Shown here: in pieces, positions 33,118 through 52,327 of the stretch | Layout of the letters: the number at the start of each line of letters is the position of its first letter | Position numbering within the stretch: the stretch's first letter is position 1 | NCBI GenBank assembly: GCA_029881795.1 | Contig: JAOULX010000009.1 | Location: forward strand, 1 to 64,000 | DNA: 64,000 nt | Origin: Gammaproteobacteria bacterium | Lineage (GTDB): Bacteria > Pseudomonadota > Gammaproteobacteria > SZUA-229 | Reading direction: 5' to 3' | Made by a program: the position numbers and the translations under genes | Notes under the pieces: generated by a model | What the model was told of the DNA's origin: nothing | The model's input: the letters and a program-made list of their open reading frames with translations, nothing else | Databases searched by the model: none

Positions 33118-33122
33118 AGCGA

Positions 33123-33150
33123 TACTCCGCATTTATTCAGTAAATGAGTA
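33123..33150 (-). promoter_or_regulatory. hairpin hiding the gcvT ribosome binding site
   Basis: On the minus strand TACTCATTTA (33150-33141), a CTGAA loop, TAAAT (33135-33131), a GCG bulge and GAGTA (33127-33123) form a 10-bp hairpin. The Shine-Dalgarno GGAG (33128-33125) lies within the 3' arm. It follows the second glycine aptamer directly, so it is the likely translational expression platform of the riboswitch. Confidence 0.6.
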
Positions 33151-33769: not shown

Positions 33770-34675
33770 TCACGATGGATAAAATTCAAGCGGGTAGGTT
33801 ACCGTTACCGTTTCAACTTTCTTCTTTCCAAAATTGAATAATTTAATTCGTGATAACAGCTTTCTTTCCAGCTTTTTATCCTTTAATTCACTGGAGACAA
33901 TTTTAACTTTAGTCACGCGTCCTGATGGTGCGATGGTGATTTCCAGTACAACACGACCTTCCAGCCCGGGATTTCGGCGCAGCTCACGGTTATAGATGGC
34001 ATAGATTGAACCTTTGTTCTTATCCATGACGATAGTTATTTCTTCAGTGGTGCGTGTTTTTTGTTTATTCTTTTGAGCTTTTTCAGATTTGACAGTAGCT
34101 GCAGCGGCAGAACTTTTAACTCTGGTGGTTTGTCTGCTGCCGATTGCAGTGCTACTAACACTGCGATCAAGACCCTTGGTACTGACACCCCCGCTGCCAC
34201 GAGTCAGGCTGGCAGACAGGTTCAGATTATCATTGCTTGCTGCTTTTGTTCCGGAGTCTAAAGCCCGGCTATTGATCAGATCACTGATCGCCGGTGTCTC
34301 CATTAGATCCGACAACTCATTGGAAAGTGCTAATAAGCCGGATTTTTTTGCTTTTTCACGGGCCTTGGTCTGATCAGTTGTTAAGGGTTTTTTCGGCTTC
34401 GGCCTGGGCCGCTTGATCTGTTTGTCTTTGACTGGGGCTTTAACCACCGGTTTTGCTACAGGTGTTTTTTTCTTCTGCTCCAGAAACTTTACCAGCCTCG
34501 GCGGCAACGGCTCACGTTCTTTTTTTTCCGGCTTGGGCACATCAATTATCGCAACCAGTAGACCCAGCAGCACACAAACAGATAACACAATGCGATAAAT
34601 TTTGCGAAATAACACATCATCTTCATTTCTTTGCATCCACTGCAGAGAAAATTCCTGATAATTACTCACTGACAT
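33770..34675 (-). CDS. TonB-like energy transducer with AgmX/PglI C-terminal domain
   Basis: 301 residues. A short cytoplasmic start, one membrane helix (about 27-43), then a Lys/Pro-rich stalk (45-105) and a low-complexity Ser/Thr linker. The C-terminal domain (about 205-301) has the AgmX/PglI pattern IYNRELRRNPGLEGRVVLEITIAPSGRV. In Myxococcus, such domains occur in the GltG/GltJ (AgmX) gliding proteins that span the periplasm. With ExbB and two ExbD encoded just upstream, it probably carries proton-motive-force-driven motion to periplasmic and outer membrane partners. It is the last gene of the cluster. Confidence 0.85.
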   Translation of the reverse strand: MSVSNYQEFSLQWMQRNEDDVLFRKIYRIVLSVCVLLGLLVAIIDVPKPEKKEREPLPPRLVKFLEQKKKTPVAKPVVKAPVKDKQIKRPRPKPKKPLTTDQTKAREKAKKSGLLALSNELSDLMETPAISDLINSRALDSGTKAASNDNLNLSASLTRGSGGVSTKGLDRSVSSTAIGSRQTTRVKSSAAAATVKSEKAQKNKQKTRTTEEITIVMDKNKGSIYAIYNRELRRNPGLEGRVVLEITIAPSGRVTKVKIVSSELKDKKLERKLLSRIKLFNFGKKKVETVTVTYPLEFYPS

Positions 34676-34721
34676 AATTCACTAAACCTTTAAGCATTGT
34701 CTTCACCAATTTCACCACCCG

Positions 34722-35225
34722 TTAACTTTTCGATTTTGCAATCTGTAAGACAGCAAGTGAAATTCTGGAATAATTTGTCTTGGTACAGGTGGCCATGATT
34801 TTTTTCAGGGCTTTATAGGGAATTTTCTTATCCCCCATGATTGTAATTTCGCGCTGGCCATCTTTGGTTTTTTTAGACTTTGAACGCTTGTATTCAAATT
34901 GTAACTCTTTTTCCAGCTGCGGAATGACTGCTGCCTTTAAGCCGACAACATCACTTAGTGAAACCACACGTCTACCGGAAACCAGTAGCTCATTATTGCT
35001 GACTGCAATCACCAGTGTCTCTTTCGGCAGCGCTTCCGCCACCGACTTTGGCAACTGTATATCTTTTGAACCGGGCAATTGCTGGGTACTGGATGAATTG
35101 ACCAGTAAAAAGAACACCAGAATGGTAAAGATATCCATTAATGAAACCAGATTAAGACCGACTTTTTTATTGCGTTTATGGCGCCTGTCCATACGCATGG
35201 CTCGTTTTGACATTTTCATGCTCAT
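34722..35225 (-). CDS. ExbD/TolR-family proton channel subunit (second copy)
   Basis: 167 residues. One membrane helix (about 25-45) with the proton-conducting aspartate in LVSLMDIFTILVFFLL, then a periplasmic ExbD domain with KIPYKALKKIMATCTKTNYSRISLAV. Its ATG overlaps the stop of the first ExbD gene (ATGA). Two unlike ExbD genes after one ExbB match the AglR-AglQ-AglS stator of Myxococcus. Confidence 0.9.
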   Translation of the reverse strand: MSMKMSKRAMRMDRRHKRNKKVGLNLVSLMDIFTILVFFLLVNSSSTQQLPGSKDIQLPKSVAEALPKETLVIAVSNNELLVSGRRVVSLSDVVGLKAAVIPQLEKELQFEYKRSKSKKTKDGQREITIMGDKKIPYKALKKIMATCTKTNYSRISLAVLQIAKSKS

Positions 35226-35734
35226 TGACGACCGCCTTGCTTTTTAGCTACTGGCGCATCACCGATACTGATGGCGGGAAACAGATCGATAGTCTCTACC
35301 GTCATCCCCGGCAAAATAATATTTGCCGTTCTGGCCCTGTCCATGACTTTAACCATCAACTGATAAGAAACATCTGGCTCGATCAGTATCGTCACATTTT
35401 GTTTTTCTGGAAATTTATTTTTTATCTGCACCAGAAGATCGCTTATTTTTTGCCATTTAGCCTCTTCGTTTTTTACTGCAAAACTTTTGATCAGCTTGCT
35501 ACTGCCATTTCTAATATCTATCTGACTCTCTCGCAATACGATTTGTAACTGCAGGTCAGGCTTTTTATTTTTATCTGCACCACCAGCACCTTTGGGTATA
35601 TTCAATTCCAGAATAGCAATTTTAGAAAACACCGCGGTTATTAAAAGAAACGGAACCAGTATCACCATCAAATTCATGAAGGCTGTGATATTCATTTCCT
35701 CATCGTCTTTCAGATGTCTTTTTCTTCTTCGCAT
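35222..35734 (-). CDS. ExbD/TolR-family proton channel subunit (first copy)
   Basis: 170 residues, a basic start MRRRKRHLKDDEEMN, then a membrane helix with ITAFMNLMVILVPFLLITAVF and a periplasmic ExbD domain (VTILIEPDVSYQLMVKVMDRAR). The helix has asparagine where the second ExbD copy has the proton-carrying aspartate (FMNLM against LMDIF), so this copy may not conduct protons itself. The first copy also has a longer periplasmic insert. Confidence 0.88.
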   Translation of the reverse strand: MRRRKRHLKDDEEMNITAFMNLMVILVPFLLITAVFSKIAILELNIPKGAGGADKNKKPDLQLQIVLRESQIDIRNGSSKLIKSFAVKNEEAKWQKISDLLVQIKNKFPEKQNVTILIEPDVSYQLMVKVMDRARTANIILPGMTVETIDLFPAISIGDAPVAKKQGGRQ

Positions 35735-35771
35735 TTCAGATTATCCCGCTTATTTATCCGCCAAATACAGA

Positions 35772-36416
35772 CTATGCCGCTGCTTTTTTCTTGATGGTAA
35801 TAATATTCAGGCATTTAACAGCAGCCATCTCAAGGCCGTCTACCAGTTTGCTGGTTTTTGTCTGGATGACAGTATGCATCAGCAATAGCGGTATCGCCGC
35901 AATCAGTCCGAATGCAGTGGTATTCATTGCCACCGAAATACTGGCAGACAGTAAATCTGCTTTTTCAGCCGGGTCGGCATTAGCCACTGCTGTAAATGCC
36001 TCGATTAAACCAATAATAGTCCCCAGCAGTCCCAGTAGCGTTGCAATATTGGCAAATGTGGCCAGATAATGCGTTCTTGCTTCCAGTGGCGGCATCACTT
36101 CCATCATGCCCTCTTCCATCGCTGCTTCAATATCATCGCGGCGCTGCGCCGTAGACAAGCGATTAAATCCATAACTTAAGACGATACTAAGCTGTGATTT
36201 GGAGTTACTCATTTGCTGCATTGCGCCTTTATAATCATGCGTCTCCAGCAGTGGTAACAAACGCCCCCAGGTTCTGCGCATGGAAAGCTGTGACTTTGAT
36301 ATAACGATATATCTTTCCAGCGCGATGGCTACGCCTAGTGCCAGAACAATGAGTATCGGGTACATAAACAGCCCGCCAGTTTGAAAGAAATTAATGAGCG
36401 AATTAAATATATCCAT
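35772..36416 (-). CDS. ExbB/TolQ/MotA-family proton channel protein
   Basis: 214 residues with three membrane helices (about 15-35, 115-140, 155-185), the ExbB pattern GLLGTIIGLIEAF and SISVAMNTTAFGLIAAIPLLLMH near the C-terminus. It forms the pentameric channel around which ExbD dimers sit. ExbD genes follow at 37 bases. In context it would drive the AgmX-type transducer rather than siderophore uptake, since no TonB-dependent receptor is near. Confidence 0.92.
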   Translation of the reverse strand: MDIFNSLINFFQTGGLFMYPILIVLALGVAIALERYIVISKSQLSMRRTWGRLLPLLETHDYKGAMQQMSNSKSQLSIVLSYGFNRLSTAQRRDDIEAAMEEGMMEVMPPLEARTHYLATFANIATLLGLLGTIIGLIEAFTAVANADPAEKADLLSASISVAMNTTAFGLIAAIPLLLMHTVIQTKTSKLVDGLEMAAVKCLNIITIKKKAAA

Positions 36417-36464
36417 AGTGTCTCCTAAATTGTTTTTTGTTTAACCGTCGGGTTAATATCGTAA

Positions 36465-36740
36465 TTATTCTGTCTGACTTTCAATCAACTCGGCATAATT
36501 GTTTTCCTGCCGTTTAAACTCTTCCGGATCGACGGGCCTGAGCATATCATCTGTCATACCATGCACCTTCAACTGGTAATCAATTTCTGTCGCTGCTACT
36601 TTTTTCCAAGGCACCACATATAAAATTTTAGGCAACTCACTGTTTCCGGTTATCTTGCTCGACTCAAGTCTTATTCGCTGTTCCGCCTGCACAGAAACAG
36701 ATATTAACAGAAGAGACAACAATATTAATCGTATTCTCAT
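36465..36740 (-). CDS. small exported protein of the machine cluster, unrecognised
   Basis: 91 residues with a signal peptide (cleavage near residue 19, VQA). The mature part is short and mixed: SSKITGNSELPKILYVVPWKKV then a helical charged tail. It abuts the TPR lipoprotein gene and precedes exbB, so it is probably a periplasmic component of the same machine. No family is recognised. Confidence 0.65.
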   Translation of the reverse strand: MRIRLILLSLLLISVSVQAEQRIRLESSKITGNSELPKILYVVPWKKVAATEIDYQLKVHGMTDDMLRPVDPEEFKRQENNYAELIESQTE

Positions 36741-37325
36741 TTATTTTCTCGACTTTAATTGACGTTGCAACAGTGACACCCATTGCGAAACCCGTTTATC
36801 ACCAGCTTTTTTCAGATCAAGGTATAAGCGATAATTTTCCAGTGCCTTATCCGGCTTATGCAGATACAACTCCTGCAATATTCCCAGATTATAATACGCA
36901 CTGGCGTAATATGGGTTGCTTACAATCGCCGCCTCTAGCATCCTTTCAGCCTCTGAAAACTTACCTTTCTTTCTGTAGATAACAGCCAGATTGTTTCTTG
37001 CCTGTACCAGCTTGTCGTTTATTTTAAGTGATTTTTCAAAAAACTCTTCGGCCTTGCTCAATCTGTTTTTACTGGCATAAATAACCGCTTTATTAGCCAG
37101 CACCCCACTTGCATTCGGGTATTTTTTTAACAGTTTATTAAGTATAACTTGTGCCTGCTTCAGACGCTTTTTTTTGATTCCCTCTAATGCTCTTTTATAG
37201 ACCCGTTTGTCTGAATCCGACATTGATGACTGCTGATCAGCAGATTCATCGTCGATTTTCACAACATCCTGCACACAGGCTGTTAACAGACTAAAGCATA
37301 AGATCAAGCTCAGACTATAACGCAT
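36741..37325 (-). CDS. TPR lipoprotein
   Basis: 194 residues. A lipoprotein signal with lipobox LTAC (cysteine at 17), then three to four tetratricopeptide repeats (for example ALEGIKKKRLKQAQVILNKL, VYASK..AEEFFEKSLKIND and ASAYYNLGILQEL). It would be a periplasm-facing scaffold, most likely on the outer membrane. It overlaps the preceding giant TPR gene by 11 bases. Analogous in type to GltE of the Myxococcus machine, an inference from architecture only. Confidence 0.85.
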   Translation of the reverse strand: MRYSLSLILCFSLLTACVQDVVKIDDESADQQSSMSDSDKRVYKRALEGIKKKRLKQAQVILNKLLKKYPNASGVLANKAVIYASKNRLSKAEEFFEKSLKINDKLVQARNNLAVIYRKKGKFSEAERMLEAAIVSNPYYASAYYNLGILQELYLHKPDKALENYRLYLDLKKAGDKRVSQWVSLLQRQLKSRK

Positions 37326-40104
37326 CGATCACCAGCTCCAGCTTTTCTTCACGCAGATAACGGCCGGGGTATAACTTAGCCAGATTATCAACACTTTTTT
37401 TGACCCATTTATCATAAATTGAATCCCGTGTACGCTTCAGATTACTCTGATAAAACTCGATCGCTTTTTCTTCGAAAGGAAACGCCTGCTCCTCAAGCAA
37501 TATATTGTATTGCTCAAGTTCCTCTGCATTGAGATTTTTAGGACGTTCTGATTTCATCAGCGCTTTACTGAATTCATTATATATCACACCGATTTTATGA
37601 GTGGCTTCAGTACTTGTCTCTGCTATTTTGTATCTGAGCACACTGGCAAAGGCATTCACCGCCTTTTTCATCCTGGTCTTTTTTAATTTCAAATTCTTTT
37701 TAAACGGCGCTTTAAGTGTAACCCAGCTGTAATGCAAATAGGCCCGGTCAGCTAGGCTAACTGAGGCCTTTGATGCCAGATAACGGGAGCGTGCAGAACG
37801 TGATTTACCAGCCGATTTCTCTGCTGCGATAAGCTTTTCTTGCCACTCCCTCTGTTTTTTCGCCTGATTCAGATAGCCGTAAATCTCTATTACTTTCTGC
37901 CGTGTCTCCATCGCAATCGCGAACGGACGGGGGTATTTCGCCAGATAGGTCTGATAGGCCTCTATCGCCTTCCATCTTTTAGCAGCTTTTTCATACAACT
38001 CTGCTATCTGATAATAAAGTAGCCGCCGCTGTTTAGCGGACTTTGTAAACTTTATCATCCTCGTATACTCGGAAGCCACATTTACATATTGTTTGCTTTC
38101 TTTATAGGCAACCGCAAGCTTTGTCGTTACATCGTTTTGCAATTTATGCTTCGGATAAAACTTCCTGAAACGCACCAGCACGTTAATGGCTTTTTCCCAT
38201 TGTTTTGTTTTAAGCAACTCATTTGCTGCATCAAATTCGGCTGCAGAGACTATTGATGACTCAGGTACTACTTTTTTAAGCCTCAGAAAGGTCCTGATCG
38301 CCAGTTCACTGTCACCGGCTTTCTGAGCAATCTCCGCTTCTTTATATATAGAGATAGCAATTCGCTTTCTGATTTTTTTATACTCTTTGTCTTTCTTTTC
38401 TTTAGCGGGCCTTAGTTTTAACAGTTCAAGATAAGTTTTTTCTGCCTCAGAATATAATTCTAGTTCAAACTGACCATGCCCAAGAATCAACAGCGCCTTC
38501 TTTTTCTGCTTGCTAGTCGATTGCGGCAGCACTAATTCTGCCATATCAATCGCCTCAAGAAATTTTCCCTGCTCATATTGGATTTCTGCAACATGCAGCA
38601 ATGTATTTTTAAGGCGCTTATCTTTAGGGTAGGCAGCAGCGAATTTTAGAGTACTGTCCACGACTTTTTTCTGCCACTCCAGCCTGGTCTTTGTTTTCGG
38701 CTGTGCCAGCTTTGCCACACTGGTTGCAACCAGCACAGCCGAGTATGCTGCCTCTGTAGTTTCTTCTGACTTCTTGTAATTATATGCCACCGCCTCATAA
38801 GCACTGAAGGCCTCATCATATCGCCTTAACTCTGCTAACAGCTCGGCATATAAAAAATGCATGTGAGCGGTCTCTTTATCCAGCGGGAAAGATTCAATAT
38901 ATTCTGAGTACCAGTGTATCGCCCTGGTTTTTTCTTTATCGGATTTCTTGTTCTGACCCAGACTGTGATGGTACTGTGCCAATAATTTAAAGTTGTATTT
39001 GAGTGCTGTTTTTATTCCTTCAAACTTATCAATATCATTAGTTTGCCAGTAAGCTGACTTCAGTGAATACAGGTGAGAGAATTCCTGTCGCGCAGCAATG
39101 ACTTTTTTCGGTAATTTGCTGCTGCGCCAGACATCGATTGTTTCCAGCGCGAGATCAGGTGAATGCTCAGAATTTTTATAACTCTTCACAAAGGCCATAT
39201 AGCTGTCAGCGGTATCAGCATAACGCTTCTGACCAAGGTATAACTGGCCCAGTGAATAATAGATATCTTTGATATATGGCCCGGCTTTTCTTTTTGTAAA
39301 GAAATTATTCACAGAAGAAACACCCTTCATTGATGAAAAACTCAGGCTGATAACACGCAGACTATCCGCATAGAGTTCATTCTCAATTCTTGACAGCTCT
39401 CTTTCACTGCCAAATTTTAAATTATCCAACACCGATACAAAATCATGCAGCGCCAGATCATATTTCAATAACTTAAAATAAACCCAGCCACGTTTATACA
39501 AGGAATTATCTGCATAAATAGATTCTCTGCTCAGTACGGCGGTATATGCTTTAAGGGCTTTCTGGTAGTCTTTTTCAATAAAATACGCCTCAGCCAGTCT
39601 GAATTGAGCCTGTGAATAAAACTCTGATTGCGGATACGAATTAACCAGCCTTACCAAACTGGCCATAACCTGATCAGGCTCGGCGTTTAGCTCATAAGCC
39701 CGTGCCAGCTGATATAAAACGCGGTGATTATCAGCCTCGCCAGGATATTCTTTCAGGGCCGTTTCAAATAACTCCACTGCAGATGCAATACCCTGTTCAA
39801 TATCCCGTTGCTGCTGCTCTGTTACGGTATCACTGGCTATCAGTTTTTCTGCCTGATCGACTTCAATCTCGGCTAAGCGCACCAGTACCTGTCTGCGTTG
39901 CTCACTAGATGGCCTGGATACCTGCAGATATTTTCTATATTCGAAAATAGCACTGCCGCCGGTCTTAACCGCTGGCAGCTGATTTAGAAAACTCAGATCA
40001 GCCTGCTGCTCAATATCAGCAATCGTGATCTTATCTGCGTATGCTAGCGAACCGTAATATACACTTAGAAAAAAAGCTGTATGCCTGCAGCAGCGCCTAA
40101 TCAC
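37315..40104 (-). CDS. giant periplasmic TPR protein
   Basis: 929 residues, GTG start within a GTGA overlap with the upstream gene. A signal peptide (cleavage near residue 23, AYA) is followed by an almost continuous array of tetratricopeptide-like helix pairs from about 50 to 880 (for example EADNHRVLYQLARAYELNAEP, PQSEFYSQAQFRLAEAYFIE, KKALLILGHGQFELELYSEA), rich in lysine. It has no other domain. In role it resembles GltD-type TPR scaffolds, linking inner membrane motor to outer membrane partners; this is inference. Confidence 0.85.
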   Translation of the reverse strand: MIRRCCRHTAFFLSVYYGSLAYADKITIADIEQQADLSFLNQLPAVKTGGSAIFEYRKYLQVSRPSSEQRRQVLVRLAEIEVDQAEKLIASDTVTEQQQRDIEQGIASAVELFETALKEYPGEADNHRVLYQLARAYELNAEPDQVMASLVRLVNSYPQSEFYSQAQFRLAEAYFIEKDYQKALKAYTAVLSRESIYADNSLYKRGWVYFKLLKYDLALHDFVSVLDNLKFGSERELSRIENELYADSLRVISLSFSSMKGVSSVNNFFTKRKAGPYIKDIYYSLGQLYLGQKRYADTADSYMAFVKSYKNSEHSPDLALETIDVWRSSKLPKKVIAARQEFSHLYSLKSAYWQTNDIDKFEGIKTALKYNFKLLAQYHHSLGQNKKSDKEKTRAIHWYSEYIESFPLDKETAHMHFLYAELLAELRRYDEAFSAYEAVAYNYKKSEETTEAAYSAVLVATSVAKLAQPKTKTRLEWQKKVVDSTLKFAAAYPKDKRLKNTLLHVAEIQYEQGKFLEAIDMAELVLPQSTSKQKKKALLILGHGQFELELYSEAEKTYLELLKLRPAKEKKDKEYKKIRKRIAISIYKEAEIAQKAGDSELAIRTFLRLKKVVPESSIVSAAEFDAANELLKTKQWEKAINVLVRFRKFYPKHKLQNDVTTKLAVAYKESKQYVNVASEYTRMIKFTKSAKQRRLLYYQIAELYEKAAKRWKAIEAYQTYLAKYPRPFAIAMETRQKVIEIYGYLNQAKKQREWQEKLIAAEKSAGKSRSARSRYLASKASVSLADRAYLHYSWVTLKAPFKKNLKLKKTRMKKAVNAFASVLRYKIAETSTEATHKIGVIYNEFSKALMKSERPKNLNAEELEQYNILLEEQAFPFEEKAIEFYQSNLKRTRDSIYDKWVKKSVDNLAKLYPGRYLREEKLELVIDAL

Positions 40105-41573
40105 TTTTGCACTGCCTCAGCTGCAGCATCAGACTCTTGCTGCAAAGCCTGTTGTATTAATTGCTCTGTTTCCAGCTGCTGTTGTTTTAACTCCTGTTTA
40201 TCATAAAACTGTGCCAGAGCAAAACGAGCCTGTGACAGATAATCTGTTACCTCATCGTACTGCGCCCTTAAGGTATCAATAATAAAATGTCGGGCAAATT
40301 TCTGATGCCACTCGATCGACTGCCGAACTTCTGCTTTTGATTTTTCAACAGCAGCAACCGACTCCTGATAGCGGGCTTTATTTTTATCCGTAACATCCGG
40401 CTCTGCAATGACCAGCTGATAAAACACCTGCTCCAGTCTTTTTTCAACAAATGTCATTTCACGGTATTTATAAACAGCGTCGCGCCATTCATCCAATGTT
40501 GATACATAGCGAAACAAACGACTCATCTGTTTGTTAGTCAGCCATTCATCGACGTGTAATATTTTATCCAGATCCAGCAGATAGCGATCAAACTCACCCG
40601 CCCCGGTTTTTTCAATATAATGCGACAAGTCCAGTCTTTGCTGACCAAAATATTCAACTGCATACTGGTAAAAGGCCATCGCCTTTTCTCTATTATCTAT
40701 TTTTTGCAGCAGATACGGTATAACGATATAGGCGTGATGAATCGCTTCATTACCTACTGTCTGCTTAATCAGCCGCAGCGAAAGATTAAGCGCCAGTTCA
40801 TATTGCTTCAACTCTGATGAGGCATAGATCATTCCTTGCAAAGCCCGCGAACCCAGATGACCGTGCAGCAACACTTTTCTGAAGGCGAGCTTTGACTGCT
40901 GATAATGCCCGCCCTGCAGCAGCACATAACCCAAGGTGGTGTATATCTGATCGGTGAAGGCGTCTGCCTGATTTTTTATTGCAGCCGCATTTGCCAGTGC
41001 CGTCAATGATTTCTCAAACGCTGCAATATCAGCATTTTTTCTCATCATACAGATCGCAATATTGTATTTCACATAAGACGTGAACGGCGAAGTCTCTGCT
41101 ACCTTCTGCAATTCTTTAATGGCGGTATCGTACTGCTTATTATTCATCGCCATAATGCCATACATAATATTTTTCATCTGCTGATTAGCGGCCGATAAAT
41201 CACCCTCTATTTTAGAAAAAGCAGTCGCAGCAGAGCTTACCCGTCGACCTTTATAGTGCAGTTTGCCAAGATAAAACCAGGCTTTATTTCGTATCTTTAC
41301 TGATTCGTTTTTAGTTAACAGGTCAAGCATGCCACTGACCTGACTATGCAAATCATAGTTTAGATAAACCGATGCAACATAGGCCATACTGTTATTATCG
41401 AGCGTCAATGAAGCGCTCTCTTTTGCTGTCAGATAATGACTGATCGCATCAAAATTATCATCCTGCATTCGATAGAACATGATTTCTGAAAACAGAACAT
41501 CTGCCAGTTCCTGCTCTGTTGCTGAGCAACTGAGGGTATAAAAAACAAGCAGCAGTGACAACAGCCGTCTCAT
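40101..41573 (-). CDS. periplasmic TPR protein
   Basis: 490 residues with a signal peptide (TLSCSA near 15-20) and TPR-like helix pairs along most of the length (KAWFYLGKLHYKGRRVSSAATAF, KYNIAICMMRKNADIAAF, LGYVLLQGGHYQQSKLAF). A coiled-coil, glutamine-rich C-terminal tail runs from 455 to 490. The signal contains LSCSA, so a lipoprotein (cysteine near 16) is possible. It overlaps both neighbours by four bases. Confidence 0.82.
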   Translation of the reverse strand: MRRLLSLLLVFYTLSCSATEQELADVLFSEIMFYRMQDDNFDAISHYLTAKESASLTLDNNSMAYVASVYLNYDLHSQVSGMLDLLTKNESVKIRNKAWFYLGKLHYKGRRVSSAATAFSKIEGDLSAANQQMKNIMYGIMAMNNKQYDTAIKELQKVAETSPFTSYVKYNIAICMMRKNADIAAFEKSLTALANAAAIKNQADAFTDQIYTTLGYVLLQGGHYQQSKLAFRKVLLHGHLGSRALQGMIYASSELKQYELALNLSLRLIKQTVGNEAIHHAYIVIPYLLQKIDNREKAMAFYQYAVEYFGQQRLDLSHYIEKTGAGEFDRYLLDLDKILHVDEWLTNKQMSRLFRYVSTLDEWRDAVYKYREMTFVEKRLEQVFYQLVIAEPDVTDKNKARYQESVAAVEKSKAEVRQSIEWHQKFARHFIIDTLRAQYDEVTDYLSQARFALAQFYDKQELKQQQLETEQLIQQALQQESDAAAEAVQK

Positions 41574-42106
41574 TGGCTGCCCTTAATTATTGCAAATGAG
41601 ATATCTGGTCTTCTTGTAACTATATTGCTGCTCACTTTAATCCGCGCTATGACCTCACCTGATTTTTTATCAAACAGCCAGGTTTGTGCTTTTTTAATAA
41701 TATTGCCCTGCCGGTCGGCCCCGGAAAGAACCGCAACCACTTCATGGACGCCTTCTGTAGCGCTGCCTATATAGACTCGGTTAGCACCACCTCTAAGCAG
41801 AGCAGTTTGTTGCTTTTCGTCGTAATTAAAAGTGGTTTTATCTGCACCATCAAGCTGCACAATGATTTGTTTAAGGATAAACACCGCACCCTGATCATGC
41901 GACAAATATATTTGCAGGCGGTTTTGCTCGGGATAAGAGCTATCCATTATTAACTTACTGGCGTTTTTGATTACCTGTAAAGCTCTGAGTTTTATTTGCT
42001 GATCGGCCTGAGACTGTTTTTCCTTTTGATTACTCGTCGCTGACAGATTAAATGCCTGCACACAAAGCGTAATTAAAATAAGACTTTGCCAGAGAACTCT
42101 GCGCAT
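41570..42106 (-). CDS. unrecognised exported protein of the machine cluster
   Basis: About 178 residues from the ATG at 42106, which overlaps the preceding stop as TGATG; a longer frame from a GTG at 42118 is less likely. A signal peptide (QAFNLSA near 20) leads to a beta-rich domain with QNRLQIYLSHDQGAVFILKQIIVQLDGADK and HEVVAVLSGADRQGNIIKKAQTW. The pattern resembles a small immunoglobulin-like sandwich, but I name no family. It is strongly coupled to its neighbours. Confidence 0.65.
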   Translation of the reverse strand: MRRVLWQSLILITLCVQAFNLSATSNQKEKQSQADQQIKLRALQVIKNASKLIMDSSYPEQNRLQIYLSHDQGAVFILKQIIVQLDGADKTTFNYDEKQQTALLRGGANRVYIGSATEGVHEVVAVLSGADRQGNIIKKAQTWLFDKKSGEVIARIKVSSNIVTRRPDISFAIIKGSQ

Positions 42107-42714
42107 CAGAATGACCACTCAATCCCGAGATGAATTTCTGTATTATTTGTCAGCTTATCAGTTCCCAGAATATCCGAATTAATTAAGCGGTCGCGAAATT
42201 CAATCCTCAAGGAGTGACCGTTAGCCGGCTCTATTTTCAGGCCAACACCGGCATGCAAGGCCACGTAATCTTCACTATCGATCGTAATTGATCCGATTCC
42301 GCCCAGCAGATAAATATCCGCACGTAGTGCCTGACCTTTGCGCCAGTAAACTTCTGCCGGCAAAACATTGTAGCCAAGCAAGACACTGTAAAAACCCGCA
42401 ACAACCTCTTCTTCAGATAATAACGGCAACCCGACGTTTCTATATTCACTATCATTAACCAGCGCAGCACCTAACTCTGCCGATACAAACAGATCTTCAT
42501 CAAACGGATAATTAATATACCAGGCCAGCATTGGGCTGCTGTTAAAGTTTTCAAAGTTCATTAGCCCGATATAAACACCGCTGTTGATACCCACATTCAC
42601 CAGATCAGCATCTTTTATCAAAGCCTGTTCAGCATCGGGGTTGACTATATCAAATGCACTAACCAGCGGACTGAACAGCAGCAATAAAATAATAGCTAAA
42701 TATCTGTCTTTCAT
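42106..42714 (-). CDS. outer-membrane beta-barrel protein
   Basis: 202 residues with a signal peptide (cleavage near 20, VSA) and alternating hydrophobic strands ending in a terminal aromatic (IHLGIEWSF), the insertion signal of outer membrane barrels. About eight strands are possible. In the Glt and Nfs machines, small barrels (GltA, GltB, NfsA, NfsB) are outer membrane parts; the same slot is inferred here. Confidence 0.78.
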   Translation of the reverse strand: MKDRYLAIILLLLFSPLVSAFDIVNPDAEQALIKDADLVNVGINSGVYIGLMNFENFNSSPMLAWYINYPFDEDLFVSAELGAALVNDSEYRNVGLPLLSEEEVVAGFYSVLLGYNVLPAEVYWRKGQALRADIYLLGGIGSITIDSEDYVALHAGVGLKIEPANGHSLRIEFRDRLINSDILGTDKLTNNTEIHLGIEWSF

Positions 42715-42723
42715 ATCATTCCT

Positions 42724-43461
42724 TCAATAAAAGTAATTCAGGCCAACACTGACTTCTTCTAGGTATTCATCAAACTGCTCTGACTGCGGATAATAACGCA
42801 GCCATTGCGCAGAAAAGCTGATGCGTTTTGACTCTGCAAAAACAATTCCCAGCCCTGCTTTATTGATTGCAGCACTGAGCTGACTTCCGCCGATTACCTG
42901 AGCAGAAGGTTTATTAACAATTTGCCCGCCACCAACGATTAAATACGGTATCAGCGTTTTTATACGTTTAAAGTAAAAGTTAAGATCCAATGTCAGCACG
43001 CGTGTTTGTGAAATCTTTCCGGGCACTTCGCCAATATTCAACGAGACCCGCATATCATCCTCAAAGCGATGACCGGCCTCAAATCCCAGCAAAATATCGC
43101 CCTGCAAAAAACCCGCTCTGAAACTCAGGTCAAATTCAGTCTCGCCTTCAAAATTAATCAGAAACTCATCAAAACTCATATCTGGATTAAGCAGACGATT
43201 ATCCAGTAACGTCGCCAGCGTCGCCCAGCCATAGACCTGTTCATTCTGCTGCAGATAAAACCAGTCAGCATATTGCTTTTTTATGTGCACCACTTCACCG
43301 CTCAGTAACACATGCTCTACCCGGTATTCATTTGCAGGGCCTTTATGAAGCTCAAGAAAGGCTTCGGTTATTTTTATCTCAACCGGTATATTTTCTTTTG
43401 CCAGCAGATGACATGACAGCGTCATCAAGATTATCAGGGCAGTTATCTTCGACCTGATCAC
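42724..43461 (-). CDS. SH3-like domain plus outer-membrane barrel
   Basis: 245 residues, GTG start overlapping the upstream stop (GTGA). After a signal peptide (near 21) comes a bacterial SH3-like domain at about 28-90 (LELHKGPANEYRVEHVLLSGEVVHIKK, WFYLQQNEQVYGWA). A beta-barrel-like segment then ends in terminal tyrosine (VSVGLNYFY). The SH3 domain could contact peptidoglycan or partner proteins while the barrel sits in the outer membrane. This combination is notable. Confidence 0.75.
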   Translation of the reverse strand: MIRSKITALIILMTLSCHLLAKENIPVEIKITEAFLELHKGPANEYRVEHVLLSGEVVHIKKQYADWFYLQQNEQVYGWATLATLLDNRLLNPDMSFDEFLINFEGETEFDLSFRAGFLQGDILLGFEAGHRFEDDMRVSLNIGEVPGKISQTRVLTLDLNFYFKRIKTLIPYLIVGGGQIVNKPSAQVIGGSQLSAAINKAGLGIVFAESKRISFSAQWLRYYPQSEQFDEYLEEVSVGLNYFY

Positions 43462-46397
43462 GGCATAATCCAGTTAACAATCGTTGATGCATCTGTGCCG
43501 GATAACACCGGTACAAAACCACCTGCTCCGTCTGATATTTGCGGATGCACCGGACTCGTTCCAGCTGACAACGGATAATTGACCAGACTGTTTTGCGCTG
43601 TTGCCGCCCGGTCTTCGATAAATGCCAGTGCCGCCCGGTAATCACCACTGACATCCCCGCTTAAAATAAAACGCGGCAAGGTATTTTCAGAAGGCACAGC
43701 ATTACTTAGCGTCGTGCTGATCGTGCGCTGATCAAAATCACTTTTATTATTGATCGCCTTATGACAACTGGCACACTGTTCCATCAGCAGACCGTGGACA
43801 CTGTCTCTGAACAATGCATACGACGGCGCAGTATACAGACCGATAACTTCTGATAAATCACTGATACCATTTGAATTCAGGTCCGGGCCATACGGGCTGT
43901 TATAATAATTGGCACCGTTATCAATCCATTCTGTCAGCAACCGCATTTCCGATAGGTTCAGCAGGTTATGATTGGTTGCACCAGTCAGTGTTTGCGGCGC
44001 TTTCAATTCACTGGCAGTTAATTTCTCGATCAGATAACTGCTTCTTGAGGATTCTCTCGGCCCACCGACGCTGACATAGGGCAAGCGTCGCTGCGTCAGA
44101 TACGCACCGTCTTTCAGATTAACCTGAGGCGTGGTCTGCAGGCCCGGATCTGCCGCTGCTTTAATCAGGTTTTTATACGACAGCAAGACGCCGTCGTTCG
44201 GGTCATAATTATTTCTTAAATCCGGGATCTGAGTATTATCATGACAGGCACTGCATTTGGCGCTAAGAATCGGCTGGATGTGTTCTACAAAATTAATAAC
44301 ACCGTCCAGCGGTGCCGGTGTGGTTAACAACCCGTAGTTAAGGTTTATATCAATTCCCTGTGCAACCAGCACCTGTACCGACGTACCAGCCGCCTCGCTC
44401 GCCAGAGCCGAGGCCTGTGCCGATGCCAGCACCGTGTCAGTTATCCAGACATCGGTATACACAATATCTGCTTTCAGGTCCGCCGAAAGTATCCCGTCCG
44501 GATCACTGCCAGTGCCGTTTACGACTCTCGCTCTGGTTTCTGCCATGGTCTCGTTTATCTGCGACGGCCCCAGCTGTGCCACCGGGTTATTAAAGGCTAT
44601 CGGGTAGATATTCAAAGCCGTGTGTCGTCTCGGACTATGGCAACCGGCACACTCCAGGGTCTCGCCGGGTCTGACCTGAAACCACGAAGTGTGGTTGGTA
44701 ATCGCCCTGCCCTTAGCATCCAGCACGCTGATCGCCAGCGGGGTATCGGCCGGTACTTTCACCAGCACCGAGCCATCCGGCTCAACTTCAGAGTAGCCCA
44801 GAATCTGTTGCATCACCGAGCCTGCTGCGCCAATTAAATCCTGTCCAGCGCCTTCTGGCACCGCAACCGGTTTGGTCAGCCTGACAAAACGCGCCGGTCG
44901 ATCTTCAACAGTGCGGTAATTGATATTGGATAAGTCCTTAATCGCTGCAATATCGGCCACGCTCTGCCGCGGATCATCGGCTGCTGCGGCAATCTGTGCA
45001 ATCATCTCGCCCTCTGTTGCAATCATCATTGACGGCCCCAGCAAATCATTACTGTCGCTGTCATAGACACTGCGCACATGCAATAAACCCTTTTTTGACG
45101 CTTCAAGTACAGCATTTAACGAGCCACCTGGCCCGGAAAACGCATCGTCAATTTGCTGAGGGTAAGGGCGCGGCTGCACCGCGATGGCATCATAAGCAAT
45201 TAAGCCTTTATCCGCTGTTACAACCGGCGTCATTTTTTTACTATCTAAGTGCATGATATAGATACCGAAAGACGGATCGCCTTCAATATTTTTGCTGACA
45301 TCGGTTTGTAAATCTCTGACCTCAATTTGCTGACTTGCCGACCAGCTCACCAGTATTCTGTTAGAGCCATCAAACACCGGATAGGGACTCAGGTAACGGC
45401 CGTATCTTGAGACCCCGGGTTCTATATTAATGCGGTTTAATGACAGCTGTTTCTGTGCTATTTCAGCGGCTGTATTAGCGGCACTATCCGCCATATCAGC
45501 AAACTGATTGATATTAATTTCAAGCAGAGCGCCGCTGCCATGGCTGCCAGAAACCGGCGCATGAATCGCCACAATATTGCCATTGGGTAACTCACGCGGG
45601 CTGAAGAAGCTATTGCCTTTACTGTATGCCCCGTACAGGGTTTCTATACCGGTACCATCCGGGTTCATGCTGATTAACGGGAAATGACTTCTCTGCCCGG
45701 TGGCTTCCCAGCGACTGAACATCAGTTTGCCATTGCTTAAAAGCGCCACATCGCGGTCGTGTCCCACATGAAAAGATATTTGTTTAATAAGCGTTCCATC
45801 CGCACTGATAACATGCAGCAAACTGGAATGGTGCCGGCCTTTGGGATCAAGATAGGAAAAGGGCTCTGTATTATTATCCGCCAGTTGTTGTCGGCTGGCC
45901 GTCTGCCGGTTTGATGAGAAGACTATCCGCCCATCCACCAAAAAGTTCGGGTGCAGATCGTCATAGAGTTCCAACGGATCATCGAATGTCCGCTGGGTTA
46001 GCTGCTTACTGGCGACATCCAGGGTCCAGATATTCCAACTATTATCTCCGGGTCGGCGCATTGAAAAAACAATGCTGCTGCCATCAAATGAAATTTCAGG
46101 ACTACTGACATCGCCATGACCGTCTGTTTCTGAAAGCGTCAGATTTTTTTCAGCGGCCGAAGCAGATGCCGCATCACGCCAGTACAAATCACCACCAGCA
46201 ACAAAACTGACCGGATCCACCGGCTGCACCAGCGCACGGACAGATCGCTTAACATAGACAACAGGAAAACTACTGGCGGCAGTAATGCTTGCGCCATGAA
46301 AATTCAGAGCATCACAGGAATTCAGAGCAGGCAGAGCAATAAAAAGCCATGCCAGACGTGGATTAAAAAATCGCAAGCATACATACATCATGAACAT
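43458..46397 (-). CDS. three-haem beta-propeller lipoprotein (HZS-alpha-like)
   Basis: 979 residues. A lipoprotein-like signal with LNSC (cysteine 28) is followed by a WD40/PD40-type propeller (about 90-400, with SFDGSSIVFSMRRPGDNSWN and LVDGRIVFSSNRQ). The region before the first haem site resembles the middle domain named after hydrazine synthase alpha subunits. CxxCH haem sites lie at 583-587, 715-719 and 875-879. The family occurs widely outside anammox, and no other anammox gene is here. It begins the machine operon and overlaps the SH3-barrel gene; its substrate is unknown. Confidence 0.78.
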   Translation of the reverse strand: MFMMYVCLRFFNPRLAWLFIALPALNSCDALNFHGASITAASSFPVVYVKRSVRALVQPVDPVSFVAGGDLYWRDAASASAAEKNLTLSETDGHGDVSSPEISFDGSSIVFSMRRPGDNSWNIWTLDVASKQLTQRTFDDPLELYDDLHPNFLVDGRIVFSSNRQTASRQQLADNNTEPFSYLDPKGRHHSSLLHVISADGTLIKQISFHVGHDRDVALLSNGKLMFSRWEATGQRSHFPLISMNPDGTGIETLYGAYSKGNSFFSPRELPNGNIVAIHAPVSGSHGSGALLEININQFADMADSAANTAAEIAQKQLSLNRINIEPGVSRYGRYLSPYPVFDGSNRILVSWSASQQIEVRDLQTDVSKNIEGDPSFGIYIMHLDSKKMTPVVTADKGLIAYDAIAVQPRPYPQQIDDAFSGPGGSLNAVLEASKKGLLHVRSVYDSDSNDLLGPSMMIATEGEMIAQIAAAADDPRQSVADIAAIKDLSNINYRTVEDRPARFVRLTKPVAVPEGAGQDLIGAAGSVMQQILGYSEVEPDGSVLVKVPADTPLAISVLDAKGRAITNHTSWFQVRPGETLECAGCHSPRRHTALNIYPIAFNNPVAQLGPSQINETMAETRARVVNGTGSDPDGILSADLKADIVYTDVWITDTVLASAQASALASEAAGTSVQVLVAQGIDINLNYGLLTTPAPLDGVINFVEHIQPILSAKCSACHDNTQIPDLRNNYDPNDGVLLSYKNLIKAAADPGLQTTPQVNLKDGAYLTQRRLPYVSVGGPRESSRSSYLIEKLTASELKAPQTLTGATNHNLLNLSEMRLLTEWIDNGANYYNSPYGPDLNSNGISDLSEVIGLYTAPSYALFRDSVHGLLMEQCASCHKAINNKSDFDQRTISTTLSNAVPSENTLPRFILSGDVSGDYRAALAFIEDRAATAQNSLVNYPLSAGTSPVHPQISDGAGGFVPVLSGTDASTIVNWIMP

Positions 46398-46779
46398 TCA
46401 CGCCAGCCACACTGTCGTTCAGAAGCACCATCTTGCAGTGCCTGACTGTTATGAAACTGGATTCCCTTAAATTTATGAACCGGTTAATACAGTGCCTGCA
46501 TATATCCGGCTAATCACCCATATTATTGTTAGCCTGATCGCAAGCAGCATCTTCAGACGCCTCAAAAAGCGATACAAGCCCGTTTTTATTATTCCCTTTT
46601 AACTAAAGCATTGATATTGCAAATAAAATCCATGCAGATCAGACACTATAAACAATGCCGCTGATCACTGGCAAGCGATCATTCTAACCTAATATATGAA
46701 TTCAGATAAGGGAAGTTATTTGAAAGACAGACGGAATCAGCAGGGCCGCGCCCACTGATTCGTCGGTTTGAAATACTGC
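46398..46779. other. gap between TpsA and the three-haem gene
   Basis: About 380 bases without a gene, AT-rich. It separates the two-partner secretion unit from the twelve-gene machine unit and probably contains the promoter of the latter. I see no strong terminator or dyad and cannot place promoter boxes. Confidence 0.4.
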
Positions 46780-49700
46780 TTAACGACAGGCCAGCACTTT
46801 ACCGTCTGAACTGTTGTCAGCCCCGGCATTCTCGTCCTCTGGCTGTTCCTCATCAAGCTGTGCAACCAATGCGTCACTGGTACTGATAAGGGTATCGACC
46901 GGTACATTAATCACTTCAACATTGTCAGGACTAACAATACTGCCATCCAGTATGGTTACTCCCAGTGCTGCGATCAAGTCCGCGACCGAGCCCACACCAG
47001 TGCCAGCTGTTCTGTTAACGATGCCACCCGCAGACAGATCGACCAGCATAGAACCGCTTGCCGCATTAATCACTGCGGCTCCGTTCGCTGCCGCAGTGCC
47101 GGTTAAATCCAGATTACCGTTAACCAAAAGATCTATGTCGCCGGCTGTCATATAGGCACCACTGTTATCACCAGCACCAGCGGTTAAGCTCACACCGCCT
47201 GCTATTTGTGCGCTTAATTGATTGGCATTTTGCCCACTTGCATCAAATATTGACGCCGCAGAATTAACACCACTGCCACCGTTAAGTGTCAGATTAGCCG
47301 CCAGATTAAGACTGATATCACCCTCTGCCGACAAATACGCATCGGCATTATCGATAGAGCCACCCTGAATAGTCAGATCAGCTGTCGCTGCAACATTCAA
47401 TAAGCCAGTTGTTGCTACATGCACTGCACCGGCTGTGGCCTGAAGCCCAACCGCAGCACCGCTGATATTCATATTGGCCGCCGTCATAGTTAATATGCCA
47501 GCGCCGGTATTGCTTATCAAAACATCACCAACGCCATCTGCATCGGTATCAGATGAAATCGATAAGTCCGCACTAGCAGCAACATTATTGTTAATGCTCA
47601 CTGTTCCAGCTGATGTCAAATCCATATTGCTGGCAGACAGTGTGCCGTTAATCGCCAGCCCGGTGACTGCGTCTACTGCCAGATTTGCTGCTGCATCGAG
47701 ATTACTGGCAACCGTTAAGGTGCCGCTTGTATTCAGCACTATATCACCGGCACTGTTGAGCCCACTATCAACATTAAGGTTACCCGTGTTATTAATATTA
47801 ACGTTATTGAGCTGCTGATTATTGAAACTTAAAGATGCGACCTGTGTATCAAGCGCAGCCACAGAGCCGATTCCATTTGCCGCCGTGAGTGTCGTGTTCT
47901 GGGCCACGATGTTGGTCCCTGATGCACTGGCTTTTTCAATCGCTCCGGCAGCCGTTAATATGACATTTCCAGTAGCCGCACCTGTACTGGTACCATCAGC
48001 AGTGGCATAAGCCGCCTGTAGATTAATATCGCTGGCATCTGTATAAACTATATCACCAGCTGTACTTGCCAGGTTGAGCTGATTCACATCATTACCCGCT
48101 GCCGTTAAGCTGATACCATTGCCAGCCTTGGCAGAAAACTGATCAACCACAACCCCACCACCAATCGTGTTCACTCCTGCTGCGCCATCGGTAATCGCGC
48201 CAGCTGCGTTCAGGCTAACGGTGCTCGCACTAAGACTTGCAGCATTATTAAATGCAATATCGCCGCTCAGTGATGACATAAAAAGCGCCGAGCCAGTCGC
48301 GCTCAATGCTGCATTCACATTGATTGTGGCATCTGATTCAATCGTGATATTGCCCGAAGACGTATTCCAGTCTGCTGCAATCACCGATACCAGGCCCGGG
48401 GTTTGATTGGCAACAAATATATCACCGCCATTTGTTGTGAACGTATTCATAACAAATGCACTGGCTGCAATATTCGCAATATTATCCAGATAAACAGAAC
48501 CCGCGCCTGCCACAGAAACGCTTACCGCACCTTGCAAGTTTGACAGATTAAAGTGGCTCGCTGCCGTGCCGATACCGTTTTCAGAGATCAGATTAAGATC
48601 AAACGCCGAATCAATATTCGCGACCCCAGCTGCAGCATTTAAAATAGACCCGCCTGTTGTGCCGTTACTGGCGACACTGGTATCAAGCACTACACTAGCT
48701 CCGCTAGCATTGATTGTTCCAATGCTAAGATCACCGTCATTATAAATTTCAATAACATTTCCATTCGTTAGATCTATATTGCTAACCGTCATGGCTTTAT
48801 TGTTTGAAAAATAAATACCGCCAGTCACTGAGTTACTAGCAGAGCCCAGCGTGTTAACAGACAGCTGAATTGGGTTGGCCTGGGCTCCAAACCCATCGGT
48901 AGTGATGAAACTAAACTGATCGGCAACGATATCCAGTGCAGATACACTGTTATCTGTCACGCTGCCGACATTAAGAATCACACTGCCCGCTCCTGCATTC
49001 ATCGCCATCAGTGACGCATTTTGCCCGAACGTTAAAGAGCTTGCAGTCGCTGTTGTGGTCGCAGAAATATTTCCGCCCGCGGTATCAATACTGCCCGCTC
49101 CAGCAAACGCAATAGCATCACCCGCCGACAACGTAACGCTGCCGCCTGCGGTAGAAATGATATTGTTAATCTGAATCTGCCCAAGACCATCACTTTCTCC
49201 AGCAATAACTTTACCGGAATCAGCAACCAAGGTTAGATTTAGAGCGGCAGTGCTCGAGGTAATTGGCGCATCAATAATAATGTCGTTAGCCGCATCCAAC
49301 GTTAAAGAAACAGCCGTCGCCCCAGTCACATTAATTGCTGTTGCGACTGTAATATTGCCAGAGTCTGTACCTGTACCACCAGTATCTATTTCAACATTTG
49401 TACCGACGTTTAATTGCGCCAGCAAGGTATCAACATTTAAGTTTGAGCCCGCACCGGTACTGCTGAATAGCGGAGCTGCAGTAATTGCTGAATCGACCGC
49501 GGTGCTGATTGTTAAATCATTCGGGTCCAGTAGCCAGCTACCGGCTTGACCATTGGCAGCAGACAAGTCCAGTTTGATTTCAGCTACATCAAGAAACTGT
49601 TTACCGGAGGTTTCTACAAAACCGCCATTACCATTTTGCAGGCCACCGGTTGCACTGATGGTACCGTGGACTCGGGTCGCATCATCGGCCCAAACTATGA

Positions 49701-50823: not shown

Positions 50824-50837
50824 CTTCATCGCCTTAT

Positions 50838-52319
50838 TTATTGAGAGATACACTCAAAGTCCTTATTTTCATCAGGACTGGTGACATCGTTGAATAAATT
50901 CTCCCAAGTCTCACTATAAGACTCAGGTCTGGGATACACATCGGCCGCTAAAAATGCCGGAATACTGCTCAACAGTGCTGGTTGTGTCTGACCACTGGCG
51001 ACATTACCACTAAAGCCAGCCTCACCTTTCCCTAAATCTACCCGAAGGCCCTGATCCGTCGACATACTGACATGGCCATCATAAACCGAGACGTATAAGC
51101 CCTCTCGGGTCTCGGTTGCATTCTTTTGACTGAACGTTGAAGCAGCGACGTCGACTGTATCGGGCCTTGGCGCTGGAGCAGAACGCATAAACAGGGGCAT
51201 CTCAGGTAACATAATCGGCGCACTGTCGATGTTCCTGAGAAATGCGGTTTCATTTAAATTAAGCACACGGCTACCCGCATTATTGCTTAACTCAACCGCA
51301 CCATCCCATACGTGGGTATACATACCTTCGTTAGCTGTAGCCACAACCGGACTGATAAAGAAATTCAGCATTTTTTCTAATGGTGTGAGCAGCGCCCGCG
51401 GGCTTGCAGCCACACACTTACCATCGCACATAATATCGTAACCCGTGCCTCGAATACCGATGGTGGCAACCGGGGTTTGCATTTTATAACCTGCTGGATT
51501 GCTCTTTCCGATCAGACCACTGGTGGCGCGCAGCCCCCCGCGCAATAACGACATCAGAACTGAACTGACTGACGCATCATTTTCATTATAGTGATGCTTT
51601 TTAATCTCGAATTCTGAATCCGCATTTAAAGTCACCCGGCTTTGATCTCTAAACGCAATCACTGCAAACGATGACAGACCGGTACTGACTTTATCACCTT
51701 CGTATAACGGACCACCGACAAAGATCTGCCTGGTTTTCTGATGTTTACTACGGGCACTTACCTGACCACGCATAAAGGCAACCCTGCCAATGACATAGTC
51801 AGCACCTACATTCTGGTTTTTGCTGGAGCGCTGATTTTCCTTGACGCAGTCTTTTTCACAGAGGCGGGCATCAAATTCTGTACCGCGAATACCAATGGTC
51901 GCCAGCGGCGTTTTAATTTGATAAGCATCATCCCGATTTTTACTGATGAAGCCGGTAATTGCACGAATACCACCTTTAAATAAACTCAACACCGCGCTGT
52001 CTGAGCGACTTCGTCTTGCAATGTATCGATCAATACCTAAACTGGAATTGGGGCGGATGGTGATTTTTGTGCCATCTTTCATTTTGACAATGGCAAAACT
52101 TCTGGCTGCCGTGGTGATGATATCTTCTTCAAATATTACGGCATTTTTACCCATAATACGCGTACCCTGATCGCCATGCTGTGCAGTAACAACACCACGC
52201 ACATAATCAACCACACCCACTTCACTGGCGGCAGAAACATTTGCAGAATACAAACCAACGAGTGCAATTAAAATTCCACTGAAGAGCGAAGCCTTGCTGA
52301 GTAACGACTGGTTTTTCAT
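50838..52319 (-). CDS. exported protein with two FecR domains
   Basis: About 493 residues from the ATG at 52319; the frame also opens at a TTG four codons earlier. A signal peptide precedes two copies of a unit of about 165 residues. Each has a FecR-like domain (GVVTAQHGDQ... and GRVAFMRGQV...), the segment GGxRAxxGxIxK and then TPxATIGIRGT. A second repeated element, EGMYTHVWDGAV / EGLYVSVYDGHV, follows. There is no cytoplasmic domain or sigma factor nearby, so it is not a classical FecR sensor; a surface or periplasmic TPS accessory is inferred. Confidence 0.85.
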   Translation of the reverse strand: MKNQSLLSKASLFSGILIALVGLYSANVSAASEVGVVDYVRGVVTAQHGDQGTRIMGKNAVIFEEDIITTAARSFAIVKMKDGTKITIRPNSSLGIDRYIARRSRSDSAVLSLFKGGIRAITGFISKNRDDAYQIKTPLATIGIRGTEFDARLCEKDCVKENQRSSKNQNVGADYVIGRVAFMRGQVSARSKHQKTRQIFVGGPLYEGDKVSTGLSSFAVIAFRDQSRVTLNADSEFEIKKHHYNENDASVSSVLMSLLRGGLRATSGLIGKSNPAGYKMQTPVATIGIRGTGYDIMCDGKCVAASPRALLTPLEKMLNFFISPVVATANEGMYTHVWDGAVELSNNAGSRVLNLNETAFLRNIDSAPIMLPEMPLFMRSAPAPRPDTVDVAASTFSQKNATETREGLYVSVYDGHVSMSTDQGLRVDLGKGEAGFSGNVASGQTQPALLSSIPAFLAADVYPRPESYSETWENLFNDVTSPDENKDFECISQ

Positions 52320-52327
52320 AATTACAC

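Follow-up and report, generated by a model that had tools for sequence, protein, structure and literature searches.

An operon of the gammaproteobacterial Agl-Glt core class with a barrel pair, a haem lipoprotein and one ExbD protein carrying asparagine at the proton site

The stretch of DNA analysed here (the window; 64,000 nucleotides, positions 1 to 64,000 of contig JAOULX010000009.1, assembly GCA_029881795.1) belongs to a gammaproteobacterium of the SZUA-229 lineage, whose genome of 2.93 Mb is 97.5% complete. It carries a twelve-gene operon that probably specifies a member of the gammaproteobacterial Agl-Glt core class, a proton-driven machinery that would handle surface proteins, with a load that would differ between lineages. 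Clustered homologues of the Myxococcus proteins AglR, AglQ, AglS, GltC, GltD, GltE and GltG have been described as a 'core complex' in several Gammaproteobacteria, together with one additional gene of unknown kind that has no myxobacterial relative. There the function is stated to be unknown and the genes to be insufficient for motility, and GltA, B, F, H, I, J and K are held to be confined to Myxococcales and Bdellovibrionales (Luciano 2011, PMC3169522). The core was called a standalone machinery in 2013 (PMC3858216). Since it was published in 2011, the gammaproteobacterial core is not new here. New here are the constant association of the core with a barrel pair, the one-sided loss of a proton site, redox modules that are exchanged between lineages, and the unusual condition of the window genus. 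The ancestral function of the Agl-Glt core has been open since 2011, and we found the core in about a quarter of the sampled gammaproteobacterial genomes; the barrel pair and haem/flavin proteins that almost always accompany it provide concrete candidate loads for tractable hosts.

The operon consists of 12 open reading frames on the minus strand, from 46397 to 33770, with junctions ranging from a 48-bp gap to a 13-bp overlap (Table 1). The transcription order is haem lipoprotein, SH3 domain plus barrel, TIGR04565 barrel, a small exported protein (s182), a 490-aa tetratricopeptide repeat (TPR) protein, a 929-aa TPR protein, a TPR lipoprotein, a second small exported protein (s91), ExbB, ExbD1, ExbD2 and a TonB-like protein. 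A first-pass annotation, made from the letters alone, had already proposed twelve minus-strand genes at this place, and every one is present and tightly packed; its inventory of one ExbB, two ExbD, one TonB-like, three TPR, two barrel and two small exported proteins and a haem lipoprotein was matched by family searches. The TPR protein that it called giant is large at 929 aa, but falls short of giant on the Glt scale (GltI, 4132 aa; PMC3169522). Two further species of the genus (genomes G036 and G035) have the same gene order, indicating that the arrangement is not due to chance. Other genera of the family also have the core together with a module formed by the haem protein, the SH3 barrel and the second barrel, the two being divergent in places and with extra genes in between.

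The last nine genes form a constant core. A GltD-type alignment searched against genome contigs gave at least 579 confirmed stretches, and the best 80 were taken as loci in named organisms; being the nearest relatives of the query, these are a biased set. They come from many unclassified Gammaproteobacteria, Chromatiales, Woeseiaceae, Thiodiazotropha, Steroidobacter, Cellvibrio and Burkholderiales (e.g. Aquabacterium, Ideonella and Rhizobacter). The order s182-GltC-GltD-GltE-s91-ExbB-ExbD1-ExbD2-TonB/GltG was kept at successive junctions in 65/65, 75/76, 72/72, 62/62, 63/63, 64/64, 58/58 and 59/59 of the loci in which both genes were found. The two small proteins, for which family searches gave no match, are regular members: s182 was found in 67-68 of the 80 loci and adjoins the GltC-position gene in 65/65, and s91 was found in 77, invariably between the GltE-position gene and ExbB wherever both were found. 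Moreover, the GltC- and GltD-type proteins are fused into a single frame of 1418-1419 aa in genomes G075 and G222 (from 19284 of L135 into L136, which is G075, and L137:4254-8510), which supports a joint working of these two proteins. GltD frames of 1400-1600 aa also occur in several other genomes. A search of plasmids for GltD relatives found none.

To the core must be added the outer-membrane barrels. In a sample of 369 gammaproteobacterial genomes, drawn evenly from the class and covering 272 genera, a GltD relative (E <= 1e-30) was present in 88. TIGR04565 exceeded its cut-off in 56 of these 369 genomes, and all 56 also have GltD (13.4 expected, Fisher p 1e-43); 39 of 57 barrel matches lie within 25 kb of it. 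The HZS_alpha domain of the haem lipoprotein was found in 57 class genomes, 52 of them with GltD, and 48 genomes have both barrel and HZS_alpha, with 47 of 66 HZS_alpha matches no more than 6 kb from a barrel. The first-pass annotation had tied its proposed kinship with Agl-Glt to conserved synteny and co-occurrence in other Gammaproteobacteria, and both were found. The two window barrels are related to each other (hhalign prob 94.5, E 7.7e-8), and relatives of the SH3 barrel match TIGR04565 at 5e-9. In Myxococcus, the paralogous barrels GltB and GltA precede GltC (cglC-gltB-gltA-gltC), the three proteins bind one another, and GltC accumulation requires both barrels (PMC4488436). The window pair stands in the same gltB-gltA-gltC order and is a putative GltB/GltA counterpart by position, size and class.

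The motor differs from its Myxococcus counterpart at the proton site. The membrane Asp is retained in 62/62 ExbD2 sequences, whereas 53 of 65 ExbD1 sequences, including that of the window, have Asn at this site. A proline seven residues beyond the site is also found in 53/65 ExbD1, with no Asp form among these. In a tree of both ExbD paralogues, the Asn group makes up one side of a single branch (support 100/99), and the Asp-form ExbD1 proteins (12 sequences, from Steroidobacter and loci with similar neighbours) fall outside it. Given a root between ExbD1 and ExbD2, this reads as a loss that happened once. In Myxococcus, by contrast, AglQ and AglS both have the conserved Asp, and a 2022 review treats homo- versus heterodimer as an unanswered question (PMC9389320); the D28N substitution in AglQ abolishes function (PMC3858216). 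The encoding of an Asn-type ExbD1 beside an Asp-type ExbD2 suggests a heterodimer that would carry a single proton site, and the loss in ExbD1 thus bears on the hetero- versus homodimer question for the two ExbD-type subunits of such motors.

With respect to the 2011 core complex, the window has the members described there in one cluster: one ExbB, two ExbD, a TonB/GltG protein and three TPR proteins in order, the homology of the latter to GltC, GltD and GltE being positional. In addition, the window set includes the related barrels, ordered as gltB-gltA-gltC, and at the place of GltF a gene of similar size (s91, 91 aa; GltF, 89 aa; a likeness of size and position), and the haem and flavin neighbours of the gammaproteobacterial core are not described in the accessible parts of the paper (PMC3169522). 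With the Agl-Glt and Nfs systems of Myxococcus xanthus, the operon shares the motor, a GltG-type transducer, TPR proteins and, judged by place and mutual relatedness, paired barrels, and its order resembles that of nfsA-H except for s182 and the inserted motor genes. The transducer has the tail of GltG but lacks the FHA domain, and reaches the GltG model at 3.6e-13 with 48.9 of 650 bits, below the cut-off. All seven relatives compared match both the GltG model (best 1.9e-17, none near the 650-bit cut-off) and the AgmX/PglI tail; a PDB sequence search with the TonB-like profile gave no match. The TPR lipoprotein at the GltE position matches the GltE model at 6e-7 and the PilW model more strongly, at 3.5e-16. 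The kinship with Agl-Glt and Nfs proposed at first pass therefore stands for the core, by the GltG and AgmX/PglI matches, gene order and co-occurrence, but without the FHA domain and without reaching the curated GltG and GltE cut-offs. Two models taken up as Glt candidates, NF033759 and NF033757, proved to be TraA and CglB.

Beside this constant core, at least four gene sets alternate between lineages. The usual one comprises ApbE, an HZS-alpha-like protein, a small cytochrome-like protein, the SH3 barrel, the TIGR04565 barrel, a thioredoxin (AhpC/TSA) and DUF3570. A second consists of a PSD2-type cytochrome-like protein, a LamG haem protein and a DUF1501-like Tat protein, with or without ApbE. 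In a third, a longer TonB-type gene is followed by one for a giant exported protein that is DUF11-like. The fourth is that of the window genus, which has the HZS and barrel part of the usual set, lacks the flavinylation genes in the operon, and has a two-partner secretion (TPS) unit adjoining. Genome G050 contains two core types, each with different neighbours. Most relatives have genes for ApbE, a thioredoxin-like protein and DUF3570 in the interval from the barrels to the core or close by, as in the described ApbE-DUF3570-thioredoxin-DUF4266 flavinylation clusters, in which DUF3570 is a proven ApbE substrate (Meheust 2021, PMC8238504); the window operon has none of these genes. Of the 57 barrel matches, 46 have DUF3570 no further than 4 kb away, a share that is probably higher in truth, because 7 of the 11 others belong to genomes possibly outside that search; the window is one real exception, and two DUF3570 genes stand elsewhere in its genome, on other contigs. 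The text of Meheust 2021 mentions ExbB and gliding nowhere and TonB once, and does not mention the ExbBD/TPR core; a literature search for the HZS/ExbB/TPR combination found nothing relevant. If one kind of machine handled different surface loads, an energised core that stays the same while its exported neighbours change would be expected.

Two of these arrangements deserve description. In the second core type, a TonB-like protein of ~457 aa is followed by the giant DUF11-like protein (L105:17213-22546, L122:17239-22470, L089:17341-22488 and L138:1-3189), in several cases next to the infB-rbfA-truB-rpsO-pnp region. The DUF1501-like Tat-signal protein (L037:13042-14775 and relatives), which had no Pfam match at E 0.01, stands beside the core with the LamG haem protein and mostly with the PSD2-type cytochrome-like protein too.

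The haem lipoprotein of the window has the lipobox LNSC with an invariant Cys27 and CxxCH motifs at residues 583, 715 and 875, the third of them in a C-terminal extension of the window genus past the end of the relatives in other genera. It aligns with hydrazine synthase alpha (5c2v) over the middle domain with its haem site and the C-terminal haem region, but with 53 bits in all, and differs in being a lipoprotein and in having the third CxxCH. With the hydrazine synthase alpha equivalog model it scores 73.7 of 800 bits, and the operon encodes no beta or gamma hydrazine synthase subunit; there is no reason to expect hydrazine synthesis by this system. An AlphaFold2 (AF2) model of the lipoprotein was not used, as its pLDDT was 49.8.

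Taken together, the parts, their order, conservation and co-occurrence and the loss of one proton site are matters of sequence, from which a working can be proposed. In the inner membrane, proton flow through the motor of ExbB, ExbD1 and ExbD2 would move the TonB-like (GltG-type) arm, which would pass the force via the periplasmic TPR proteins at the GltC, GltD and GltE positions and the two small exported proteins to the outer-membrane barrel pair at the GltB/GltA positions, and to whatever is bound there at the surface. Surface-exposed or outer-membrane-attached proteins could in this way be installed, retained or moved. We infer where each part is located, and take the transmission of force from the binding of AglR to GltG (PMC3169522) and the mutual binding of GltA, GltB and GltC in Myxococcus, as analogies. 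The Myxococcus motor also moves Nfs and a surface polymer (PMC3858216). The load, presumably encoded by the upstream modules, would usually be the haem/flavin redox set, and here the HZS-alpha-like haem lipoprotein and possibly a TpsA filament from the adjoining TPS unit. More speculatively, and in our opinion doubtful, the gammaproteobacterial machine may be a mechanical device for extracytosolic redox work, a proton motor with one protonatable site per ExbD1/ExbD2 heterodimer installing or moving surface haem/flavin proteins via the GltA/GltB-like pair, gliding having arisen when Myxococcus swapped this load for an adhesin.

Several observations weigh against the proposal that the core handles surface loads. 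No match reaches the curated cut-off of any Glt equivalog, and the TPR proteins, the barrels, s182 and s91 are putative counterparts of GltC/D/E, GltA/B and GltF on the grounds of their position, size and class rather than of a direct alignment. The co-occurrence p-values treat genomes as independent, although ancestry is shared. The evidence for the modules as load is gene context. As regards TpsA, a transcription boundary separates it from the operon, and the TPS domain is found in 33 class genomes with GltD against 28.6 expected (p 0.16), which is no association. The first-pass idea of a proton-driven device acting on a surface polymer or adhesin shares in the kinship of the core, but nothing was found that ties the system to surface motility or polysaccharide, and ExbD1 lacks the proton-binding Asp. 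Our search of the literature found no experiments on the gammaproteobacterial branch.

Among other explanations, an energised export or import across the outer membrane is improbable, though less so than the rest. The barrels would conduct or gate a substrate such as a metal, haem or a polymer, the motor opening them in a TonB-like manner, and the haem/flavin proteins would act on that substrate; a TonB-like transducer and an ExbBD-type motor are indeed present, ApbE, thioredoxin and HZS-like genes are often close to the barrels along with the frequent DUF3570, and flavinylation clusters are partly linked to iron assimilation (PMC8238504). However, the operon has no TonB-dependent receptor, its ExbB and ExbD are far below the cut-offs of the TonB-ExbBD models, the barrel domain of ~160 aa is too small for a TonB-type plug barrel, and other core types have the giant DUF11-like protein instead of redox genes.

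Still less probable is that the motor and the TPS unit form one system in the window genus, the motor energising the anchoring, release or movement of TpsA. The unit consists of three genes immediately upstream of the operon, which the first-pass annotation had not mentioned, and its tpsA is the sole TPS exoprotein gene in this genome. Both other species of the genus retain the arrangement: G036 has the complete set including the TPS unit, and G035 the twelve genes with tpsA adjoining, its contig ending inside tpsA. Against this, the two are separate transcription units, the class shows no association, tight adjacency was seen in this one genus, the other case being a loose one over 13 kb that are interrupted by unrelated genes, and known two-partner secretion requires no such energy source. 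The boundary is marked by a terminator-like hairpin, kept in G036 with compensating changes, and a promoter-like site in a block conserved in G036 and G035. This site is the top-scoring one of the region; single sites are weak evidence, such matches being overall no commoner than in shuffles. Given the conserved hairpin and promoter block, together with the missing class association, we rejected the TPS genes as members of the operon, took them as a separate neighbouring unit and kept the operon limits of the first-pass annotation.

It is unlikely that the operon encodes a true gliding engine for propelling the cell, in which TpsA or the haem lipoprotein would serve as surface adhesin. The core is homologous, such motors move surface adhesins in Myxococcus and Flavobacterium (PMC3858216, PMC9389320), and a large exoprotein gene adjoins the operon. 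However, as in the window, where the first-pass annotation noted no MglA-type gene, no MglA-size GTPase was found in the genome, and Arf-family matches occur only in frames of 334-450 aa. The operon, unlike the Myxococcus system, has a haem lipoprotein and no CglB, to which the genome offers only a 27-residue match (E 0.001), and GltI and GltJ are missing from the operon, the rest of the genome not having been searched for them. Moreover, the 2011 paper showed that the core genes do not suffice for motility (PMC3169522), and most genomes in the quarter of Gammaproteobacteria with the core are not known to glide. Given how widely the core class is distributed, and that the search of the host genome did not find the polarity and adhesin parts, gliding is also unlikely as the general function, though for this organism it keeps a low probability. 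Spore or Exo polysaccharide genes were not seen in the window, the rest of the genome not having been searched for them.

A second Tol-Pal-like system for envelope integrity without surface load is very unlikely: TolQ is the closest model for ExbB and TolR for ExbD, and the TPR protein has YbgF-type repeats, but the scores are far from the cut-offs (TolQ 61.2 of 221 bits, TolR 33.1 of 127.3 bits), no Pal or TolB gene is in the operon, Tol has neither barrels nor a haem protein, and the five further MotA/ExbB proteins of the genome suffice for its own Tol and Ton systems.

Table 1. Features of the operon and of the adjoining unit (positions in the window).
Feature	Position	Strand	Evidence
First gene, lipoprotein; N-terminal beta-propeller-like region, HZS_alpha middle domain	43458..46397	-	PF18582 2e-20; 5c2v_A 1.2e-13
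SH3-like domain plus outer-membrane beta-barrel, GltB position	42724..43461	-	SH3_4/SH3_3 below cut-off
Outer-membrane beta-barrel, TIGR04565 OMP_myx_plus, GltA position	42106..42714	-	TIGR04565 4.4e-29, above cut-off; OMP_b-brl 1.1e-7
s182, exported, N-terminal helix then beta-sandwich; first gene of nine-gene core	41570..42118	-	AF2 pLDDT 91.8
Exported 490-aa TPR protein, GltC position	40101..41573	-	TPR_2 3e-7; gene order
Exported 929-aa TPR protein, GltD position	37315..40104	-	TPR_6 9e-19; YbgF-type TPR stretches
194-aa TPR lipoprotein, GltE position	36741..37325	-	TPR_17 3e-15; lipobox LLTAC
s91, 91-aa exported protein, GltF position	36465..36740	-	Motif GN.ELPK.LYxVPWK (alignment); no family
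ExbB/TolQ/AglR-type proton channel protein	35772..36416	-	MotA_ExbB 8.5e-28
ExbD1, AglQ/S-type, Asn replacing membrane Asp (AFMNLMVILVPFLL)	35222..35734	-	ExbD 2.5e-16
ExbD2, AglQ/S-type, membrane Asp retained (SLMDIFTILVFFLL)	34722..35225	-	ExbD 1.8e-18
TonB-like transducer, AgmX/PglI C-terminal domain, GltG type without FHA domain; last gene	33770..34675	-	TonB_C tail; NF033768 8.7e-24, above cut-off
Unit boundary	46645..46761	-	Terminator-like hairpin 46761-46734 after TpsA; promoter-like site 46674-46645 before operon
TpsA, filamentous-haemagglutinin-type exoprotein	46780..50853	-	TPS domain 5.6e-25
Protein with two FecR domains	50838..52331	-	FecR 1e-23
TpsB, ShlB/FhaC/HecB-type outer-membrane transporter	52328..53887	-	ShlB 2.5e-24; POTRA_2 7.5e-14

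The TPS unit (46780-53887) resembles known two-partner secretion (FhaB/FhaC) in its adjoining TpsB and TpsA, which are ordinary members, and differs in the FecR-domain protein between them and in its place as a separate unit beside a motor operon; a literature search for the ExbBD/TPR/TPS combination found nothing relevant. TpsA evolves fast, with 52% and 28% identity inside the genus. It ends in KVLACR (KVLVCR in G035), where the penultimate residue is its sole Cys, and the C-terminal Cys is kept in both other species. For s182, the fold search gave generic beta-sandwiches only and nothing at E <= 0.001. Finally, two ordinary arrangements were seen elsewhere in the window: a glycine riboswitch (33275-33375, minus strand) upstream of gcvT, gcvH, gcvPA and gcvPB (28688-33132), and a 6S RNA followed by a 5-formyltetrahydrofolate cyclo-ligase-like gene (60038-60838, plus strand).

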